DNA of 45,664 nt from Candidatus Aquidulcis sp. (GTDB lineage: Bacteria > Chloroflexota > Anaerolineae > UBA4142): NCBI GenBank assembly GCA_020723345.1, contig DYJA01000053.1, positions 1-45,664 on the forward strand, written 5' to 3'. Of this stretch, positions 24,785 to 33,974 are shown one piece after another. Position numbers and translations under genes: made by a program. The first letter of the stretch is position 1. The number at the start of each line of letters is the position of its first letter. The notes below the pieces were generated by a model, which saw nothing but the letters and a program-made list of their open reading frames with translations, had not been told where the DNA came from and ran no database searches.

Positions 24785-26089
24785 CTACGCCCACCCGCGC
24801 AGTCGCATCGCTTCCGCGACGCGATGAATTGCCACGAGATACGCCGCGAGACGATTATGCACTTTGTACGTTTGCGCCATCTCGTGCACCGAGTCGAACG
24901 CGGCAGCCATCTTTTGCTCCAGCCGATCATGCACCGTCGGCAAGTCCCAATAAAAGTTGTACGCGTTCTGCACCATCTCAAAGTACGAAACGGTCACGCC
25001 GCCGGCGTTGCACAAGAAATCGGGAATGACGTAGACACCGTTTTGATACAACACCGGATCCGCGTCTGGCGTCGTGGGTCCATTTGCGCCTTCGGCGAGG
25101 ATGCGCGGCTTGATGCGCGCGACATTGTCTTTGCGAATTTGATTGTGCAGCGCCGCCGGGACGAGAATCTCGCACGGCAATTCGAGCACCGCCTCCTTAT
25201 CAACCGGCTTGCCCGCGCTGGCAAATCCCTGGATGACGCCTTTCTCTTTGACGTGCGCTTGCAACGCGAGCGCGTCGATGCCGTCCGGGTTCGACCACGC
25301 GCCGGACACATCGGCAACGCCGACCAACTTGCAGCCCAACTCTTGCAGCAAGATCGCCGCCCACGATCCGACGTTGCCGAAACCCTGGACGATCATCCGC
25401 GCGCCTTTGAGATCGACGTTCAATTTTTTCGCGGCTTCACGGACGGTTAACATCAAACCGCGTCCGGTCGCGTCTTCGCGTCCCAGCGATCCACCGAGCG
25501 CGAGCGGCTTGCCGGTGATGACGCCGAATTCGTTGTAGCCGTGCATGAACGCGAATTCGTCTACCATCCACGCCATAATTTGCGCGTTCGTGTTTACGTC
25601 TGGCGCAGGCACATCTCTGTCCAACCCGATATTGTGACCGATTTGCCGAATGTACGCGCGCGACAATCGTTCCAATTCGCCTTGCGACATCGTGCGCGGG
25701 TCACAAATGATCCCGCCCTTGCCGCCGCCGAGCGGAATATCGACGAGCGCGCATTTCCAAGTCATCCACGCCGCGAGCGCGCGCACATCGTCAATCGTCT
25801 CGTCCGGATGGAACCGGATGCCGCCTTTCGACGGACCGCGCGCGTCGTTGTACTGCACGCGAAATCCCTGATAGACGCGCGTCGTCCCATCGTCCATCCG
25901 CACCGGCAGCGACGCGTGAAATTCGCGCAGGGGCCAGCGCAGCAGTTCGTGGATCGCGGGATCGAGTTTCAAAACCTCTGCCGCTTCATCCACTTGCCGC
26001 TGGACAATCCGAAACGGGTTGAGATCGGAATCGGAGCTCACGCCAACCGCGTGGAAATCAACCGATTCCGGATAGTTGTGCCTTGCCAT
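24785..26089 (-). CDS. Glutamate dehydrogenase (Glu/Leu/Phe/Val dehydrogenase), copy 1
   Basis: 434 residues; NAD(P)-linked interconversion of glutamate and 2-oxoglutarate plus ammonia. Substrate/catalytic region: [56 protein letters not shown]. The Rossmann loop is QGFGNVGSWAA. C-terminal [11 protein letters not shown] and [31 protein letters not shown] precedes ATG 26089; an earlier in-frame ATG lacks this. The paralogue copy 2 lies directly upstream on the same strand, separated by a terminator-like hairpin. Confidence 0.95.
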   Translation of the reverse strand: MARHNYPESVDFHAVGVSSDSDLNPFRIVQRQVDEAAEVLKLDPAIHELLRWPLREFHASLPVRMDDGTTRVYQGFRVQYNDARGPSKGGIRFHPDETIDDVRALAAWMTWKCALVDIPLGGGKGGIICDPRTMSQGELERLSRAYIRQIGHNIGLDRDVPAPDVNTNAQIMAWMVDEFAFMHGYNEFGVITGKPLALGGSLGREDATGRGLMLTVREAAKKLNVDLKGARMIVQGFGNVGSWAAILLQELGCKLVGVADVSGAWSNPDGIDALALQAHVKEKGVIQGFASAGKPVDKEAVLELPCEILVPAALHNQIRKDNVARIKPRILAEGANGPTTPDADPVLYQNGVYVIPDFLCNAGGVTVSYFEMVQNAYNFYWDLPTVHDRLEQKMAAAFDSVHEMAQTYKVHNRLAAYLVAIHRVAEAMRLRGWA

Positions 26090-26117
26090 GTTCTTCTCCT
26101 CTTTGAGTGCGTTACTC

Positions 26118-26154
26118 AAAAATAATCGGCGCGAGCAAAGAACGCCCGCGCCGA
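26118..26154 (-). terminator. Rho-independent terminator between the two glutamate dehydrogenase genes
   Basis: Read on the minus strand: stem TCGGCGCGGGC / GCTCGCGCCGA (26144-26154 and 26126-26136), 7-base loop, then TTATTTTTG. It follows copy 2 and precedes copy 1. A second small hairpin (TTTGAGT/ACTCAAA, 26102-26120) lies just before the copy 1 Shine-Dalgarno. Partial read-through could set the ratio of the two enzymes. Confidence 0.7.
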
Positions 26155-26209
26155 CAACAGCATCGCGTAGGAGCGAGAGCGCCTCGCCCCCACATCAGCG
26201 TCCGATCAA

Positions 26210-27526
26210 TTATGCCCAGCCGCGCAGTCGCATCGCTTCCGCAACGCGATTGACTGCGACCAAGTACGCGGCAAGGCGATTATGCACTTTGTACTTTTGC
26301 GCCATCTCATGAACGGCGTGGAACGCCGCTGTCATTTTGGTATCCAGCCGTTCGTGGACGGTTTTCAAATCCCAGTAATAGTCGTACGCGTTTTGCACCA
26401 TCTCAAAGTACGAGACGGTCACGCCGCCGGCGTTGCAGAGAAAATCGGGCAGCACCTGCACGCCATTCTCGTACAGAATCGGGTCCGCGTCCGGCGTGGT
26501 GGGACCATTCGCGAGTTCGGCGACGATCTTGGCTTTGATCTTCGGCGCGTTCTCTTTGCGAATGACATTTTCCAACGCCGATGGGAACAGAATCGTGACC
26601 GGCAACTCGAGCAGATCGAGATTGGTGATCGAATCCGCGTCCTTGAAACCGATTACCGAACCGGTTTGCTGCTTGTGCGCCATCACCGCTTTGTAATCGA
26701 GTCCGGCTTTGTTGTAGATGCCGCCTTTGGAATCGGACACCGCGACGATTTTCAAGCCGAGCATGTCCACGCCCAATTGATGCGCGAATGTTCCGGCGTT
26801 GCCGTACCCCTGAATCGCCGCCGTCGCGCCCTGGAGACTGAGATTGAGCACCTTCGCGGCTTCGCGGACGCAGTACACGCCGCCGCGCGCCGTCGCATCG
26901 CCGCGACCTTGCGATCCGCCCAGCGCGAGTGGTTTGCCGGTGATCATGCCGAACTCGTTATAACCCTGCATGAACGCGAACTCGTCCATCATCCACGCCA
27001 TGATCTGCGGCGTGGTGTACACATCCGGCGCGGGCACATCTTTTTCCAAACCGAGAATGCGTCCGACCTGGCGAATGTACGCGCGCGACAATCGCTCCAG
27101 TTCGCCTTGCGACAACTCGCGCGGATCGCAGATGACGCCGCCCTTGCCGCCGCCCAGCGGAATGTCGACCACCGCGGTTTTCCAAGTCATCCACGCCGCG
27201 AGCGCGCGCACCGTGTCGACTGTTTCTTCCGGATGAAACCGGATACCGCCCTTGCAGGGACCGCGCGCGTCGTTGTACTGCACGCGAAAGCCGTGAAAGA
27301 CGCGCGTGCTGCCATCGTCCATCCGCACCGGCAGCGCGACGTGCAATTCGCGAATGGGCCAGCGCAACAGTTCGTGGATCGCGGGATCCAATTTCAGAAT
27401 TTTCGCCGCGTCATCCAACTGCCGCTGAGCGATCCGAAACGGATTGAGTTCGGACTCGGAACTCACTCCGACTGCGTGATAGTCCACCGATTCGAGATTG
27501 GTGGGCGCAGATTTTCGTTTCATCAT
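26210..27526 (-). CDS. Glutamate dehydrogenase, copy 2
   Basis: 438 residues, clearly paralogous to copy 1 along the whole length ([57 protein letters not shown]). The most divergent part is the nucleotide-binding domain: here [40 protein letters not shown], against copy 1 QGFGNVGSWAAILLQELGCKLVGVADVSG. This suggests different cofactor preference or regulation, or hetero-oligomers of the two (inference). GAGGAGGAATTAGA precedes ATG. Its promoter is at 27621-27649. Confidence 0.95.
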
Positions 27527-27549
27527 TCTAATTCCTCCTCATTGAGAAT

Positions 27550-27595
27550 TTGTGTCGTCCCGGACACAACAAGGCGCATGTCTGCGCAGACATGC
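27550..27595 (-). promoter_or_regulatory. Structured leader of glutamate dehydrogenase copy 2
   Basis: Two adjacent hairpins in the ~88-base leader between the predicted start site and ATG 27526: a perfect palindrome of GCATGTCTGC plus its complement (27576-27595), and TTGTGTC/GACACAA (about 27550-27569). No T-tract. It could be a protein-binding or attenuation element; no known riboswitch is recognised. Confidence 0.4.
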
Positions 27596-27620
27596 ACCTG
27601 AGACTTGCTTCCTTGCTTTC

Positions 27621-27649
27621 ACTATAGCACGTTTGAGATAAAATGTCCA
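27621..27649 (-). promoter_or_regulatory. Promoter of glutamate dehydrogenase copy 2
   Basis: Minus strand: -35 TGGACA (27644-27649), 17-bp spacer, -10 TATAGT (27621-27626). Divergent from the gatB promoter, with -35 boxes only a few bases apart. Confidence 0.6.
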
Positions 27650-27652
27650 ATT

Positions 27653-27680
27653 TTCGACGCTGGGAAAGATGTGATATAAT
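27653..27680 (+). promoter_or_regulatory. Promoter of gatB
   Basis: -35 TTCGAC (27653-27658), 16-bp spacer, -10 TATAAT (27675-27680); only 17 bases separate the -10 box from ATG 27698, with GAAGGAG between. Very short leader. Confidence 0.6.
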
Positions 27681-27697
27681 GACACCGAAGGAGCATC

Positions 27698-29143
27698 ATG
27701 GAACTCGAACCCGTCATCGGCTTGGAAGTCCACGCGCAATTGCTCACCGCGAGTAAAATGTTCTGCGGCTGTTCCGCGGATTACTCCGGCGCTCCGGCGA
27801 ATACGCACGTCTGCCCCGTTTGTCTTGGCATGCCCGGCAGTTTGCCAGTGATCAATCAAACCGCCGTCGAGTATACGATCCTCACCGCGCTCGCGTTCCA
27901 CTGCGAAATTCCAGAGTTTGCGAAATTCGACCGCAAGAATTATCACTACCCCGATTTGATGAAGGGTTATCAAATCTCGCAGTACGATTTGCCGCTTTCG
28001 CGCGCGGGGTACGTTTTGATCGACGACGCGGGCGCGCCCAAACGGATCGGCGTGCGCCGCGTCCACCTCGAAGAGGACACCGCGAAACTTTTCCACGTCG
28101 ACGACACAAGTTGGATCGACGTGAATCGCTCCGGCGTACCGCTGATGGAAATCGTCAGCGAGCCGGACATGCGCTCGGTCGAAGAAGCGCGCTTGTATTC
28201 GATGAAACTGCGCCAGATTTTGCGCTACCTCGGCGTTTGCTCCGGCGATATGGAAAAAGGCGCGATGCGTTTCGAGGCGAACATTTCTCTGCGCCCCAAA
28301 GGATCGGACAAACTTTCCGCGACGCGCGTCGAAATCAAAAACCTCAACTCGCTGCGCGCGATGGTGCACGCGACCGAATACGAAATCGCGCGGCAGACGA
28401 AAATTCTCCAAAGCGGCGGCACCGTCGAGCAAGAGACGATGGGCTGGGACGAAGTCCGCAACACGACGTACACGCAGCGCAGCAAAGAAGAGGCGCACGA
28501 CTATCGCTATTTCCCGGAACCCGATCTGCCGCGCCTTCAAGTCGAGCGGAAATGGGTGGACGATCTGCGCGCGCGGCTACCGGAACTGCCGGACGAAAAG
28601 AGCGCGCGCCTGATGAACGAGTCGGGCTTGAGCGCGTACGATACCGGCGTCATCACCGCCGAGCGCGAGATCGCGGCGTACTACGACCGCGCGGTACAAG
28701 CCGGACAAGCGCGCAGCGTCGACGCGAAAGCCATCGCCAACTGGGTGACCGGCGAGTTGTTCCGGCTGATGAAGGAAACCAACGCCGAAATCGACGCGGT
28801 CAAAATCGCGCCCGCGCAAATTCCGGATTTGATCGCGCTCGTCAACGCCGGAACGATCAGCAACACAATCGCCAAAACGGTGTTTGAAGAGATGTACCAG
28901 ACCGGCGCCGACGCGCCCGCCATCGTCGCCGCAAAAGGGCTGGCGCAAATCAGCGATCGCGGCGCGCTGGAAAGCATCGTCGAAAAAGTCTTGGCGGAGA
29001 ATCCCAAACAGGTTGCCGAGTACCGCAGCGGCAAAGAACCCATCGCGAAATTCCTCGTCGGGCAAGTGATGAAAGCGACCAAGGGTCAGGCGAACCCGGC
29101 CCTGGCGAATGAATTGGTGATGCGAAAATTGAAAGGCGACTGA
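27698..29143 (+). CDS. gatB: Asp-tRNA(Asn)/Glu-tRNA(Gln) amidotransferase subunit B
   Basis: 481 residues; the kinase/tRNA-binding subunit of the GatCAB complex that amidates misacylated Glu-tRNA(Gln) or Asp-tRNA(Asn). Family signatures: [90 protein letters not shown]-like text (here [20 protein letters not shown]) and [19 protein letters not shown]-terminal YqeY/GatB tail domain ([45 protein letters not shown]) is complete. gatA and gatC are not adjacent. Confidence 0.97.
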
Positions 29144-29150
29144 AAGGTTA

Positions 29151-29179
29151 TTGACATTCTGCGACGCTCGCCCTATAAT
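29151..29179 (+). promoter_or_regulatory. Consensus sigma-70 promoter of the GTPase/Roadblock operon
   Basis: -35 TTGACA (29151-29156), exactly 17 bp, -10 TATAAT (29174-29179): both boxes match consensus, the best promoter in the window. It stands between gatB and the PATAN-Roadblock gene (29208), implying strong, largely constitutive expression. Confidence 0.85.
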
Positions 29180-29207: not shown

Positions 29208-29867
29208 ATGCCACTCCAAGGCAATCTCCAGGAAATGAGTCTTGCCAATCTGATTCAGGTCAGTTGTCAGGAAATGCGTTCGGCGGAGTTGACCCTCCAA
29301 CACGCGGATCAGACCGGCGACGTTTATTTCTCCGACGGGCAAGTCGTTCACGCCGCGCTCGGCGCGTTGCGCGGCGAAGAGGCGTTGTACGAAATGCTCA
29401 CGTGGGATAATGGCACATTCGTCCTCGACCGCGATGTGCCGCCGCCGGAAAAGACGATTACGATCAGTTGGAGCGCGTTGTTGCTGGAGGGCATGAAGCG
29501 CGTCGCGGAACGACCGGCGGTCCGCAAAAAGGAGGAAACCGTGAAACCCGATACTCTCGCTCAACTGCGCGCGATTGATGGCGTTGCCGGCGCGGTGATC
29601 GCCGCCTCGGATGGCATCGTTCTGGGCGCGGATGTGCCCGGCAGCGATGGCGAGAACGAAGCCGCCGCGACCGTATTTACCGGCTCGGCAGCGGAGCAAT
29701 TGGGGCAAGCCCTCCAACTCGGCGCGTTCGGACATGGTCTCGTCGCATTGAAGAATAAACGGTTGTTAGTTTTGCAGCAACCCGACCGTTACATCGGCTT
29801 GGTTTTAGGTGAGAATGCTTCCCCGACGATTGTAGCCAGCGCGGCAAATGAAGTGCTGAAAAAATAG
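29208..29867 (+). CDS. PATAN (DUF4388) - Roadblock/LC7 protein
   Basis: 219 residues, soluble. N-terminal DUF4388/PATAN domain (1-95): MPLQGNLQEMSLANLIQV, GDVYFSDGQVVHAALG, GEEALYEMLTWDNGTFVLD. After a short charged linker comes a Roadblock/LC7 domain (about 114-219): LRAIDGVAGAVIAASDGIVLGADV, GALKNKRLLVLQQPDRYIGLVL-type closing strands (text here LVALKNKRLLVLQQ). PATAN domains occur in bacterial signalling proteins such as PatA. Roadblock proteins dimerise and act on Ras-like GTPases as GAPs or scaffolds (MglB in Myxococcus). AAGGTGA precedes ATG. First gene of the operon ending with the GTPase at 33974. Confidence 0.88.
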   Translation: MPLQGNLQEMSLANLIQVSCQEMRSAELTLQHADQTGDVYFSDGQVVHAALGALRGEEALYEMLTWDNGTFVLDRDVPPPEKTITISWSALLLEGMKRVAERPAVRKKEETVKPDTLAQLRAIDGVAGAVIAASDGIVLGADVPGSDGENEAAATVFTGSAAEQLGQALQLGAFGHGLVALKNKRLLVLQQPDRYIGLVLGENASPTIVASAANEVLKK

Positions 29868-29888
29868 GTCCCCCGAAGTAAAGTTCCC

Positions 29889-29921
29889 CTGAGTTCCCCT
29901 GGGTTCCGATTCGGCGCAGGA
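29889..29921 (+). repeat. Decad tandem repeat (GTTCCCCTGA)
   Basis: Three degenerate 10-bp units, GTTCCCCTGA, GTTCCCCTGG, GTTCCGATTC, in the gap between the first two operon genes; a weak complementary GGAACACGGGAA follows. The same decad architecture as 21561-21632. Confidence 0.5.
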
Positions 29922-29967
29922 ACACGGGAATTGGAGGCGAACTTGTTATCGCGCCCCGGAGTCACAC

Positions 29968-31191
29968 ATGCCAACGGAGGCAATCCTACAAGACATCAAT
30001 GCCGTGATCGGTGTCACGGGCTCGTTTGTCTGTTTGAACGATTCCAGCATTGCCGCGCAAGCCATGCCTGCCTCCTTCGACACCCCGACTATCACGCTCG
30101 TCGCGCGGATCGTGAGCCAAACGTTTCAAGCCCTCGAAACTTCCGGGCAGCGGATTAACGAAGCCGACCTGACCTTCGAGCGCGCGCGTGTGGTTCTGAA
30201 AAATCTACGCGCGGGTGTACTCGTGATCCTCTGTGCGCGTACCATCAACTTATCCTTGCTCAATTTGACTACGAGCGTCGCCGTCCGCAACCTGTCCGAA
30301 GAACTCAAACAGGTTCAAGCCCCCGCCACCCCCCCCATCATTACGCCAACCGCTGCACCGGAACCCGCGCCCATCGTCGCGGAAACTCCGGCGGCAAGCG
30401 CGCCGCCCAATCCCCTGTTTGCCGAATTGGAAAGCGAATGGCAACAAATCATGCGCGCGGTCGCGTCCGCCAAAACCATCTTGCGCGAGATGGGCGCGCT
30501 GGCGATCTGGCTGCGTTGTCCGCAGGCGCGCGCGCTCTTGCTCGCTCCCGAAAAGAAACACTTGGAGTTTGCCGGGCACGCTTCACAGCGCGATGCGATC
30601 CGCCGCGCGTTCGAGTCGGTGGGCTATCAAACCAACCTAGCGCCCGACGAATTTCGCAGCGCGCCGCGCCTTGCTTTCACGAATCTAGCGCGCGGGGTCA
30701 CCGTCGAAATCTGCCTCAATACGTTCGCGATGTACCATCAACTTGACCTGACGCCTTACCTCACGCCGGAAGACGCGCCGCTGGCGGAAACCGCGCTGCT
30801 CCTCTTGCGCTTGCAACTCGTCGAAATGTCCGAGACGGGCTTGCGCGAATTGGGCGCGCTGTTGCGTGAGCACGAAATAAGCGCGCGGGCGGAGCCGGGC
30901 AAGATTGACTTGATGCAGATTACCCGGCTGTGCGCGGATCAGTGGGGCTGGTACAAGACCGTGACGATGAACCTCCAGCGCATCCTGCCTTTCGCCGTCA
31001 AGTCCGTTCCTTCCGGAGACAACACCATCGTGGTCGAACGCGCCGCCCGCATCCGCCAGGCGATTGGAGACGCGCCCAAGAGTTTGCGCTGGCAAACGCG
31101 CGCGCGGCTAGGCGAGAACGTGCGCTGGTACGACGTGCCTGCCACCGCAACTCCCGAACAGCCGGACGTCGAGATCCGCTCCATTGATTAG
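29968..31191 (+). CDS. Roadblock/LC7 - degenerate nucleotidyltransferase fusion protein, paralogue 1
   Basis: 407 residues, soluble. Residues 1-110 form a Roadblock/LC7-like domain (LQDINAVIGVTGSFVCLNDSSIAAQAM; LKNLRAGVLVILCARTINLSLLNLT). 115-150 is a Pro/Ala linker. 153-392 resembles a family annotated as nucleotidyltransferase: MGALAIWLRCP (175-185), AFESVGYQ, TFAMYHQLDLTPYL (252-265), RLQLVEMSETGLRELGALL, LCADQWGWYKTVTMNL (321-336), KSLRWQTRARLGENVRWYD. The acidic catalytic pair expected where the text reads KKHLEFAG (196-203) is missing, so it is probably a pseudo-enzyme or binding domain. Paralogue of 31478-32773. Confidence 0.8.
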   Translation: MPTEAILQDINAVIGVTGSFVCLNDSSIAAQAMPASFDTPTITLVARIVSQTFQALETSGQRINEADLTFERARVVLKNLRAGVLVILCARTINLSLLNLTTSVAVRNLSEELKQVQAPATPPIITPTAAPEPAPIVAETPAASAPPNPLFAELESEWQQIMRAVASAKTILREMGALAIWLRCPQARALLLAPEKKHLEFAGHASQRDAIRRAFESVGYQTNLAPDEFRSAPRLAFTNLARGVTVEICLNTFAMYHQLDLTPYLTPEDAPLAETALLLLRLQLVEMSETGLRELGALLREHEISARAEPGKIDLMQITRLCADQWGWYKTVTMNLQRILPFAVKSVPSGDNTIVVERAARIRQAIGDAPKSLRWQTRARLGENVRWYDVPATATPEQPDVEIRSID

Positions 31192-31207
31192 AGCGCGACA
31201 CCGCTCA

Positions 31208-31309
31208 ACCTTGCGAAGGTTCATCAACCGTCTTCGAATGAAGCGTACTTTCCAACGGGGGAGCGTCGCTTTAGCAAATCTGTCCGCAACCTTCGCAAGG
31301 GATGGATGC
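31208..31309. repeat. CCTTGCGAAGG-type inverted repeats in the 286-bp operon gap
   Basis: AACCTTGCGAAGGTT (31208-31222) is itself palindromic; AACCTTCGCAAGG near 31297-31309 repeats it in inverse word order. The gap between the two Roadblock fusion genes holds these and a promoter-like sequence, nothing coding that I can see. Confidence 0.5.
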
Positions 31310-31361
31310 ATCATCCAAAGTTATCAAATCTTTATGAAACCGTTAGCAAGTTGTAACGCTT

Positions 31362-31390
31362 TTTACCTCATTCTTGCCCGGGAATATGCT
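31362..31390 (+). promoter_or_regulatory. Possible internal operon promoter
   Basis: -35 TTTACC (31362-31367), 17-bp spacer, -10 TATGCT (31385-31390), in an AT-rich patch about 85 bases before ATG 31478. It would express the last four operon genes separately. Confidence 0.4.
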
Positions 31391-31477
31391 AAACTATCCA
31401 ACGGGCAGATCATCGGCGTGGGTGTTTGCAAACTCCGAAGATAAATTTCCAGGAGACTCGAAACCCAAGGGTATTTT

Positions 31478-32773
31478 ATGGAAATCATCTTGAAGGAAGT
31501 GAATGCTGTTCCCGGCGTCATCGGGGCGTTCGTCTGTTTGCCCGACGGAAAGATCGCGACGCAAGTTGTGCCGGAGAAATACGCGATTGAGGATCTGAAT
31601 CTCGCCGCGCGTGTGACGAGTCAAACCTTTCAGGCGCTTGAGTTGTCGGGACAACGCGTCAGCGAAGCCGCGCTCCTATTTAGCGAGGGGCGCATGGTGC
31701 TCAAGAATTTTCGGGGCGGCACACTCATCATTCTCTGCGCCCGCAACATAAACATTCCCCTGCTGAATTTGACGGCGAACGTCGCAGTGAAAAAACTGGT
31801 GGCGGAAACGCGTTCCACCAAACCCGCCACCCCAGCCCCGGCAGAAATAAAACCGCCCGCACCCACATCTGCCCCGACCACATCTCGTCCAGTCGCACCC
31901 GCACCAACTGCGCCTAGTCCGGCGACGCCCGCATCCGTCGTTACACCTGCGCCGCCGCCGCCCGCGCCTGTCATCCTCCCCGAGGTTGCGCTACCGCCGC
32001 TGGTGGAGGAATTGGAGAAAGAAGCCCGACAAATTGTTCATGCTGCCGCCAGCGCGCAACTCTCGTTGTGGATTATGGATCCGATCGCGTTGTGGCATCG
32101 CTGCCAAGGTCGTCGCCGTCTCCTCACCGTACCCCAACAGCGCCAAATGAACCTGGCTGGACAGGCGGCGCAACTGGCTCAAATCACTCAACTCCTGGGA
32201 AACCTGGGCTATCAAAGAAAGACACCCACCAACGCGCCGCCCACCACGCGCCGGCTCCTCTTTGCCAATTCTCAAAAGTCAATCAGCGTGATCTTGTGGC
32301 TGGATACATTCGAAATGTACCATCGTTTCGATCTCAAGCCCCTGCTCCACGCGAACGATCCGATTGCGCTACCGACCGTGCTCGCGCTGACGCGCCTGCA
32401 ACTCGTCGAGATGCCGGACGAGGCGTTGAGCGATCTCGCCGCGCTCTTCATCGAATACGATGTCAGTCTTGTCCCCAAAGCGAATCAGATCGACGCGTCG
32501 CAAATTACCGCGCTCTGCGTCGACGATTGGGGGTGGTACAAAACAATTTCGATGAACCTGGAGCAACTCATCTATTTTGCGGAAGATAGTTTACTGCTCG
32601 CCGAACGCAACGCGGTGATCGAACGCGCGCGGCGTTTGAAGAGCGGGATGGACGCCTCGCCCAAAAGTCTCCGCTGGCAAGCGCGCGCGCGACTGGGCGA
32701 AACGGTGCGCTGGTACGAAACGCCGGTCGAGATCGGCGCGACGACTCGCCCGGATATGGCGATTGGATCGTGA
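31478..32773 (+). CDS. Roadblock/LC7 - degenerate nucleotidyltransferase fusion protein, paralogue 2
   Basis: 431 residues. Roadblock/LC7 domain 1-112, closer to consensus than paralogue 1 (LKEVNAVPGVIGAFVCLPDGKIATQV; LKNFRGGTLIILCARNINIPLLNL). Long Pro/Ala/Thr linker 115-172. Nucleotidyltransferase-like domain 175-415 (DPIALWHRCQGRRR, LLGNLGYQR, LDTFEMYHRFDLKPLL, RLQLVEMPDEALSDLAALF, LCVDDWGWYKTISMNL, KSLRWQARARLGETVRWYE). The expected acidic metal-binding motif reads QRQMNLAG (221-228), so catalysis is unlikely. The stop overlaps the GTG of the next gene (GTGA at 32770). Two diverged copies in one operon suggest a heterodimer or paired switch. Confidence 0.8.
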   Translation: MEIILKEVNAVPGVIGAFVCLPDGKIATQVVPEKYAIEDLNLAARVTSQTFQALELSGQRVSEAALLFSEGRMVLKNFRGGTLIILCARNINIPLLNLTANVAVKKLVAETRSTKPATPAPAEIKPPAPTSAPTTSRPVAPAPTAPSPATPASVVTPAPPPPAPVILPEVALPPLVEELEKEARQIVHAAASAQLSLWIMDPIALWHRCQGRRRLLTVPQQRQMNLAGQAAQLAQITQLLGNLGYQRKTPTNAPPTTRRLLFANSQKSISVILWLDTFEMYHRFDLKPLLHANDPIALPTVLALTRLQLVEMPDEALSDLAALFIEYDVSLVPKANQIDASQITALCVDDWGWYKTISMNLEQLIYFAEDSLLLAERNAVIERARRLKSGMDASPKSLRWQARARLGETVRWYETPVEIGATTRPDMAIGS

Positions 32774-33051
32774 CCGTGTCGGCGCATTGGCGGGATCGAC
32801 TTGAACGGGCGCGCCGCACCTTCGGCGATGTCATGTATGGCATGTTTCTCCACGACATGGTACGCGCCAGCATGCGGACGCGCGGCACGCTCGAGCACCT
32901 TTTTATTCTGATCACGTTTGGCGACCTGGTCGGACTGCCGATCTTGCCGCCTTATTACGCCATGCGGTTATTGCCTTTCGTCGTTCCCGAAATCAACGGC
33001 TGGCGGCGGCGCCTGTTGCGCGAACGCGACATTGTGGATGCGATGTTCTGA
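32770..33051 (+). CDS. 93-residue protein of the GTPase operon, unknown
   Basis: Not recognised. A basic N-terminal helix (WRDRLERARRTFGDVMYGMFLHDMVRASMRTR) is followed by a hydrophobic stretch LEHLFILITFGDLVGLPILPPYYAMRLLPFVVP and a basic tail WRRRLLRERDIVDAMF. The hydrophobic part could dip into or sit on the membrane, which would give the complex a membrane address the GTPase itself lacks (inference). GTG start overlapping the previous stop; its own stop overlaps the GTPase ATG (TGATG at 33049-33053), so it is co-translated with both neighbours. Confidence 0.7.
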   Translation: MTVSAHWRDRLERARRTFGDVMYGMFLHDMVRASMRTRGTLEHLFILITFGDLVGLPILPPYYAMRLLPFVVPEINGWRRRLLRERDIVDAMF

Positions 33052-33974
33052 TGGCGGAATCTCAGCGACACATTTTGATCGTCGACAACGACGCGCGCAT
33101 CGTGGAAGAAATCGCGCGCGGGTTGAGCGATCAGACGACGTTCCAAATTCATGCCTTTACCAACGGCACCGCCGCGCGCGCGGCGTTGCGGCAAATGACA
33201 TTCGATTTGATTATCGCCGATTGGAAAATGGCGGACGTGGACGGCTTGACGCTGATTCGCGAAGCCAAAGCCCAATCGCCCGAAACCGTCACGGTCTTGA
33301 TGAGCGCGTACGAATTGACCGAAGCCAAATCGCTGTCCGAAGATTCGACCGCGCATCATTATTTGACCAAACCATTCACTATGGATGAACTGCTCAGTGT
33401 CGTCAATTCGATCCTGCCACCCGCGCCGCTGATCGGCGCGGTCGGCGACGCGCCGCTGGTCCTCAAAGTCGTACTCGGCGGCGACGCGAACGTCGGCAAA
33501 ACCAGTTTGATCGAACGCTACTGCACTTGCGAGTTCGATCCTGAGCGCGAGATGACGATCGGCGTAGATTTTCATTTGTACGACGCGCGCGTCGAGCAGA
33601 TGCCGCTCCGCCTCATCGTTTGGGATTTGGGCGGGCAGGAACGCTTTTCATTCGCGCGGCGCGCGTTCTATCGCGGCACCCAAGCCATCGGTTTGATCTT
33701 CGACGTGAGCAATCGCACGTCATTCTACAATTTGATGCGCTGGTGGCGCGAGGCGCGCGAATTTGCGCCCGACATTCCCATTCTCCTGCTCGCCAACAAG
33801 ACCGATCTGCCGCGCCAGGTGCCGCGCGACGAAGCGCAGCAAATCGCGCACGCGTGGAATACGCCGTTTTTCGAATCCTCGTGCGCGAGTGGCGATGGAA
33901 TCAACGAATTTTTTGAGGCGCTCGCGTTTCACGCGTGGCGTCACGCGCAACAAAAAAACGCAGAGGCGGGATAA
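33051..33974 (+). CDS. Response-regulator receiver fused to a Rab-like small GTPase
   Basis: 307 residues. Receiver 1-122: ILIVDNDARIV (D12), phospho-acceptor D57 (LIIADWKMADVDG), S85, K107 (HYLTKPFT), all switch residues present. GTPase about 136-297: P-loop GDANVGKTS (144-152), switch I TIGVDFHLY with T169, switch II WDLGGQERF (191-199) including the Gln of Ras Q61, Rab-like FDVSNRTSFYNLMRWWREA, NKTD (249-252) and SSCAS (276-280). No C-terminal cysteines for lipidation. Expected to be a GTP-hydrolysing switch gated by phosphorylation, acting with the Roadblock proteins of the same operon. The WDxxGQERF and TIGVDF text is much closer to eukaryotic Rab/Ras than to MglA. Confidence 0.92.
   Translation: MAESQRHILIVDNDARIVEEIARGLSDQTTFQIHAFTNGTAARAALRQMTFDLIIADWKMADVDGLTLIREAKAQSPETVTVLMSAYELTEAKSLSEDSTAHHYLTKPFTMDELLSVVNSILPPAPLIGAVGDAPLVLKVVLGGDANVGKTSLIERYCTCEFDPEREMTIGVDFHLYDARVEQMPLRLIVWDLGGQERFSFARRAFYRGTQAIGLIFDVSNRTSFYNLMRWWREAREFAPDIPILLLANKTDLPRQVPRDEAQQIAHAWNTPFFESSCASGDGINEFFEALAFHAWRHAQQKNAEAG

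Follow-up and report, generated by a model that had tools for sequence, protein, structure and literature searches.

A receiver-Rab-like GTPase encoded with Roadblock proteins in Chloroflexota: a candidate variant of MglA/MglB-type signaling

Results

Organization of the locus

The window, by which we mean the whole stretch of 45,664 nucleotides (nt) of Candidatus Aquidulcis sp. (contig DYJA01000053.1) that was analyzed, contains a cluster of five genes on the forward strand. These encode a PATAN-Roadblock protein (g1), two fusions of a Roadblock domain with a degenerate nucleotidyltransferase (NT) domain (g2 and g3), a small hydrophobic protein similar to cory-CC-star (g4), and a receiver domain joined to a Rab-like GTPase (g5). 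An earlier note, made from the sequence alone, had proposed five open reading frames between 29208 and 33974, and all of them were chosen by the codon-usage gene caller that set gene boundaries in the window and in the loci of relatives (29208-29867, 29968-31191, 31478-32773, 32770-33051, and 33051-33974). The note had also stated that the last three starts overlap the preceding stops. This is correct for the last two, which overlap by 4 nt (g3-g4) and 1 nt (g4-g5), but not for the third gene, since g2 and g3 are separated by 286 nt; the gap between g1 and g2 is 100 nt. All five genes are under purifying selection, with ratios of nonsynonymous to synonymous substitution (dN/dS) of 0.1-0.3 when the window is compared with its nearest relative, values that are approximate because dS, estimated by the NG86 method, is near 1.

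The strong promoter predicted in the same note was confirmed. A sigma-70-type promoter (TTGACA-17-TATAAT) lies on the forward strand at 29151-29179 and matches the consensus at 12 of 12 positions, where 0 such sites are expected in shuffled sequence. Each of the seven clusters of the window's kind (type A, below) has a perfect TTGACA/TATAAT pair with a spacer of 17 or 18 ahead of its first gene, usually 57-60 nt from the start and 84 nt in one, while the flanking sequence differs between clusters. Across the genome of the window there are 95 perfect sigma-70 sites, compared with 0 for a reversed control pattern.

The receiver-GTPase

The g5 protein (33051-33974, forward strand; 307 amino acids) consists of a receiver domain at residues 8-118 (PF00072; 71.8 bits against a cut-off of 30.2) followed by a Ras-family GTPase domain at residues 139-292 (PF00071; 134.7 bits against a cut-off of 21.6, E=2.9e-39), and its closest matches in the Protein Data Bank (PDB) are Sec4 and Rab11. 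Motifs G1 to G5 are intact (GDANVGKTS, MTIGVDF, WDLGGQE, NKTD, and ESSC), the switch-II Gln is present, and the receiver keeps D57 and K107. With only these two domains, and neither LRR nor COR, the protein does not belong among the Roco GTPases. In the GTPase tree, proteins from all three locus types described below form one clade (support 100/100) within which types A and C join at 96/99, and MglA is separate (100/100). Furthermore, an MglA-type protein has no PF00071 match, unlike the GTPase of the window. The earlier description of g5 as a Rab-like GTPase with a receiver, the acceptor of which is retained in the window, therefore stands.

Conservation across relatives

Per-gene profiles were searched in 298 genomes of the class, and the neighborhoods were inspected. 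Receiver-GTPases occur in three kinds of locus. Type A comprises the window and six relatives in family f1, and PATAN-Roadblock, fusion, cory, and receiver-GTPase genes are present in 7/7. Type C, found in family f12, has the same four-gene order, with fusion and cory in 7/7, so that both genes stand beside the GTPase in all 14 type-A and type-C loci, spanning two families of the class. Type B is a second f1 locus whose members include a histidine kinase and/or an OmpR regulator (in most loci), a receiver-GTPase, a PATAN-Roadblock protein, more PATAN or Roadblock genes, and a dCache-HAMP protein. Roadblock genes are nearby in seven of the eight type-B loci, and MglB with MglA is present in four. 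The genome of the window itself has such a locus on contig 70, where the receiver-GTPase clusters with histidine kinase, OmpR, PATAN-Roadblock, Roadblock, dCache-HAMP, MglB, and MglA genes. Overall, a Roadblock gene lies near the receiver-GTPase in 21 of 22 loci. A stable neighborhood, which the earlier note had set beforehand as the test of its proposal, was thus what we found. Outside f1 and f12, 301 genomes sampled evenly across the phylum yielded no receiver-GTPase, only standalone Rab-like GTPases.

The receivers differ among locus types. The phospho-acceptor Asp is present in 6/7 proteins of type A, 8/8 of type B, and 0/6 of type C, and the same six type-A and eight type-B receivers keep the acid pair, D57, the Ser/Thr, and the Lys; in type C the acidic pocket is lost as well. 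In one further receiver-GTPase, that of G283 (L164:6448-7377), motif G3 is broken (WDANTQDP); the G283 genome, which is 70% complete, yielded no Roadblock domain.

Genes with a V4R domain (TRAPPC3/Bet3 superfamily) occur at L161:5288-6915 and L093:8758-9669. In G098, a V4R gene adjoins the receiver-Rab GTPase with an overlap of 4 nt, and an f7 genome encodes a Roadblock-V4R fusion near an NT gene. V4R, receiver-Rab GTPase, and Roadblock-V4R together resemble the parts list of TRAPP, a guanine nucleotide exchange factor (GEF) for Rab.

Roadblock proteins and the nucleotidyltransferase fusions

The g1 protein (29208-29867, forward strand; 219 amino acids) has a clear PATAN domain (DUF4388; PF14332, E=1.7e-24, 86.7 bits against a cut-off of 25) and a Roadblock domain that scores slightly below its cut-off (PF03259, E=4.6e-4, 20.3 bits against 23). 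Its orthologue is the first gene in type-A and type-C clusters and precedes the fusion gene in family f7.

The two fusions, g2 (29968-31191, forward strand; 407 amino acids) and g3 (31478-32773, forward strand; 431 amino acids, with a longer Pro-rich linker), are paralogues that are 42-46% identical. Direct searches of g2, g3, and g4 against Pfam and NCBIfam gave no matches or only subthreshold ones, and their domains were reached through relatives. The N-terminal Roadblock domain named in the earlier note was recovered in this way: two f12 orthologues exceed the PF03259 cut-off, and the fusion profile matches the Roadblock protein on contig 70 (E=3e-10), which in turn matches PF03259 at 7e-7. 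In addition, residues 1-118 of the AlphaFold model align with an Asgard Roadblock protein (Z score, 18.2) and with MglB (17.4) over about 110 residues, and the best structural matches include Ragulator/LAMTOR subunits. The model, with a mean predicted local distance difference test score (pLDDT) of 55.6, is good in the Roadblock part only, so the NT fold is assigned from sequence; Foldseek and VIA-align gave lists taken up by Roadblock structures, which are uninformative for residues 119-407, and searching solved structures with a profile of the aligned fusions returned only chance-level matches.

The C-terminal part of the fusions groups with many standalone proteins of the class, about 255 amino acids long, that match NTP_transf_5 (PF14907). 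Neither g2 nor g3 matches this family directly, and their relatives do so at up to E=2.5e-6 (27.7 bits against a cut-off of 31.2). At the catalytic positions (G[GS]/DxD/D), g2 has G,A/H,E/E and g3 has D,P/Q,N/I, such that the catalytic residues are lost in both. The first Asp of DxD is missing from 11/11 fusions in Rab-type clusters (f1 and f12), while GG, DxD, and the third Asp are intact in 4/4 fusions linked to MglA (f7 and f41). Ten relatives without a Roadblock fusion retain GG or GS and DxD, and nine of them keep the third Asp. The dN/dS of the NT domain is about 0.3 (window versus nearest relative). We conclude that the fusions contain a predicted NT domain that is catalytically decayed but still under constraint, in agreement with the earlier reading of it as degenerate. 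Elsewhere in the class, a widespread standalone, catalytically intact NTP_transf_5-like protein has a gene for an APC amino-acid permease adjacent or close by at 5/5 loci examined (L110:3610-7130, L112:4774-7282, L105:5036-7532, L117:6906-9400, and L093:2187-6290).

Both of the fusions reported earlier are present in the window, but relatives normally carry one, and g3 is an added copy. The duplication probably predates the genus, with losses elsewhere, because g3 groups in the tree with fusions from other genera, apart from g2 (support 94/87), and because G247 has a second copy that is internally deleted.

The cory-like protein

The g4 protein (32770-33051, forward strand; 93 amino acids, with a start possibly a few codons downstream) is similar to cory-CC-star (NF041419, E=1.3e-8) at 34.7 bits, below the curated cut-off of 80, and is 69-83% identical in relatives. 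Copies near the type in the window occur without GTPase or fusion at L083:4036-8317, L082:862-1134, and L097:1092-1358; in G292, cory immediately follows a glutamate dehydrogenase gene. At other loci of the class (L099, L104, L106, L107, L108, L109, and L114), cory-like proteins, often paired, adjoin tandem ArsA-type ATPase genes, a pattern suggesting that cytosolic NTPases in general have cory as a partner. One of these loci also contains a CstA gene. A search of the open-access literature for cory-CC-star found no papers.

The same parts with MglA and MglB

In family f7 (four genomes) and family f41 (one genome), MglB and a genuine MglA (E=6e-63 against the Myxococcus MglA in the PDB) come after orthologues of the PATAN-Roadblock and fusion genes. 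This order places the fusion inside the Mgl module, and by context the fusion protein is a component of an Mgl-type switch. A GAF histidine kinase is encoded upstream in those f7 loci whose flank is long enough. To read the cluster as an entirely new pathway is thus too strong, as the fusion and PATAN-Roadblock proteins also accompany ordinary MglA/MglB. MglA was not found in the type-A genomes G137, G098, and G247 or in eight f12 genomes, all drafts of 84-98% estimated completeness in which single misses are possible. Because of this absence, the Roadblock proteins of these genomes appear not to serve MglA, and the Rab-like GTPase appears to be their obvious partner. In a tree of the NT domain, f1 and f12 fall together at 97/99, with the f7 and f41 fusions as sister at a moderate 87/88.

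Surroundings of the cluster

The region upstream of the cluster (24785-29143) contains gatB and two tandem glutamate dehydrogenase paralogues, and in one relative (L006) a glutamate dehydrogenase gene and gatB are likewise upstream. The flanks of the cluster are gatB and, on the opposite strand, a kinase assigned by sequence to the amino-acid-kinase type. A 13-nt perfect inverted repeat (31209-31221 and 31288-31300, spanning 92 nt) lies in the g2-g3 gap; we rejected it as a mobile repeat, the genome being without a full second copy. An Rfam search of the region found no structured RNA. A role in antiphage defense was also rejected, given that none of the five proteins matches PADLOC-DB.

Discussion

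On balance, the operon probably encodes a membrane-linked, Roadblock-regulated small-GTPase switch that would resemble MglA/MglB but be built on an unrelated Rab-like GTPase. With motifs G1 to G5 and the switch-II Gln intact in sequence, the GTPase would cycle between GTP and GDP forms. By analogy with MglA/MglB, MfpD/MfpB, and Rab/Rag-Roadblock biology (PMC11016934, PMC13343842, PMC10933270), its nucleotide state could be set by dimers of the PATAN-Roadblock and Roadblock-pseudo-NT proteins acting as GTPase-activating protein (GAP), GEF, or platform. Input may come through phosphorylation of the fused receiver by a kinase encoded elsewhere, since the window retains the acceptor and a histidine kinase gene adjoins the paralogous type-B set. 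The pseudo-NT domain, having kept its fold and lost catalysis, might serve as a ligand- or protein-binding module. Last, cory might tether the complex to the membrane, given that it has a hydrophobic stretch and is associated with another family of cytosolic NTPases, ArsA. A bolder version, in which the switch is under direct two-component control, receiver phosphorylation gates the GTPase on a membrane-tethered Roadblock platform, the pseudo-NT domain senses a ligand, and MglA has been displaced, would make the system a bacterial parallel to Rab-TRAPP and Rag-Ragulator; we consider it doubtful.

Several observations weigh against a membrane-linked switch of this kind. The acceptor Asp is lost in 6/6 type-C proteins and in the type-A protein of G227, all of which have intact GTPase motifs, and no kinase is encoded by the window's five genes or recognized inside type-A or type-C clusters. 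Consequently, the kinase-to-GTPase link drawn in the earlier note is plausible by virtue of the histidine kinase and OmpR genes of the type-B set, but it lacks a kinase at the locus itself and an acceptor in f12 and one f1 genome. In addition, some type-B Roadblock genes may serve MglA, not the Rab-like GTPase, because MglA and MglB are still present in four of these loci. As to the membrane, the peak hydropathy of cory (1.73) makes it only a borderline membrane helix, and its predicted model is of low confidence (pLDDT 60). Cory may not be an obligate partner either, because G207, G292, and G257 retain it in the absence of GTPase and fusion genes, and G078 retains it in the absence of the fusion.

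The same losses of the acceptor, together with the missing kinase, would be expected if the receiver were mainly a structural or docking domain and input came only through the PATAN and Roadblock proteins. We regard this as unlikely, given that the acid pair, acceptor, Ser/Thr, and Lys are conserved in nearly all type-A and in all type-B receivers and that the type-B GTPase is adjoined by histidine kinase and OmpR genes. It is also conceivable that the Roadblock proteins form a passive, Ragulator-like scaffold without GAP or GEF action, with the pseudo-NT domain carrying the output contact. Each cluster has several distinct Roadblock proteins, and the structural matches to Ragulator/LAMTOR subunits fit such a scaffold; yet Roadblock proteins of the MglB type are known GAPs and GEFs (PMC11016934; MfpD, cited in PMC13343842), and the same fusion gene occurs together with MglA/MglB in f7, which makes a purely passive role rather improbable.

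A different concern is output. Rather than forming a separate pathway, the module could have the role of MglA in controlling surface motility or pilus polarity, a reading that draws on the architecture it shares with Mgl clusters and on T2SSE-family ATPases in 15/15 genomes tested. However, these ATPases are also present in 13/14 control genomes and are therefore an uninformative marker, and no pilus or gliding gene was recognized beside the cluster, so we give this explanation little credence. Finally, the genes might be mere neighbors, kept together by a shared strong promoter with no common pathway. The perfect consensus promoter suggests constitutive expression, and cory does occur without the others, but gene order is kept across two families, the window has overlapping starts, and MglA/MglB show a parallel association with the same fusion and PATAN-Roadblock genes. 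Coincidental linkage is, in our judgment, very improbable.

Returning to a Roadblock-regulated GTPase switch, the comparison with f7 points to how the system may have arisen. A Roadblock-NT fusion of the kind still seen with MglA/MglB would first have joined cory and a receiver-Rab GTPase, and its NT domain would have decayed later. Most likely, then, this is an Mgl-like Roadblock-regulated G-protein switch in which a Rab-like GTPase fused to a receiver took the place of MglA and to which a pseudoenzyme and cory were added. Intermediates are represented among relatives: MglA/MglB with a catalytically intact Roadblock-NT fusion in f7; an operon that mixes kinase, receiver-GTPase, and Roadblock genes with MglA/MglB in type B of f1; and a Rab-only operon with a dead NT domain in type A of f1 and in f12. 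Such a natural series bears on how a Roadblock regulator can have its GTPase swapped, how direct gating of a small GTPase by a receiver can work, and how an enzyme turns into a pseudoenzyme within a switch.

In the one genome-wide survey that we found, every GTPase coupled to an MglB homologue was reported to belong to the MglA family, and the Rup family was reported to be uncoupled (PMC4316618). Clusters of the type in the window are a clear exception to the former statement. The survey centered on small single-domain GTPases, and a fusion of 300 amino acids could escape it. Like the GTPase of the window, Rup proteins have canonical Ras-like G motifs and are not MglA, but their genes were reported to be uncoupled from MglB homologues (PMC4316618), whereas coupling in window-type clusters is strong. 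In the open-access literature we searched, we found no receiver fused to a GTPase, no Rab-like bacterial GTPase with Roadblock genes, and no Roadblock-NT fusion, and searches for follow-ups on the Rup family and for receiver-GTPase fusions in Chloroflexota were empty.

The closest relationships are with MglA/MglB and the conservons. MglA/MglB of Myxococcus xanthus and Thermus likewise comprise a Ras-superfamily GTPase encoded with Roadblock proteins, PATAN genes lie near some MglA genes, receiver-Roadblock fusions are known, and response-regulator input is provided by RomR in Myxococcus (PMC4316618). The window differs in that its GTPase is Rab-like and not MglA, the GTPase itself carries the receiver as a fused domain, a Roadblock domain is fused to a pseudo-NT domain, and a cory protein is present. 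Actinobacterial conservons (cvnA-D, Mfp) also bring together a small GTPase, Roadblock proteins, and two-component-type input, but their GTPase belongs to MglA family group 2 (PMC4316618), and the five genes of the window include neither a kinase domain nor a recognized CvnC. The g4 protein is significantly similar to cory-CC-star, although its partner in the window is a GTPase operon and not ArsA. Among eukaryotes and Asgard archaea, Rab or Rag with Roadblock/Ragulator, and TRAPP, pair a Rab-like GTPase with Roadblock-fold partners, as the cluster in the window may, and V4R genes stand beside some relatives. Since tests showed that defining features of both MglA/MglB and the conservons are absent, we place the cluster outside either group. 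Taken together, our results describe a real and conserved system, apparently undescribed, that is a variant of MglA/MglB-conservon signaling and not a new kind.

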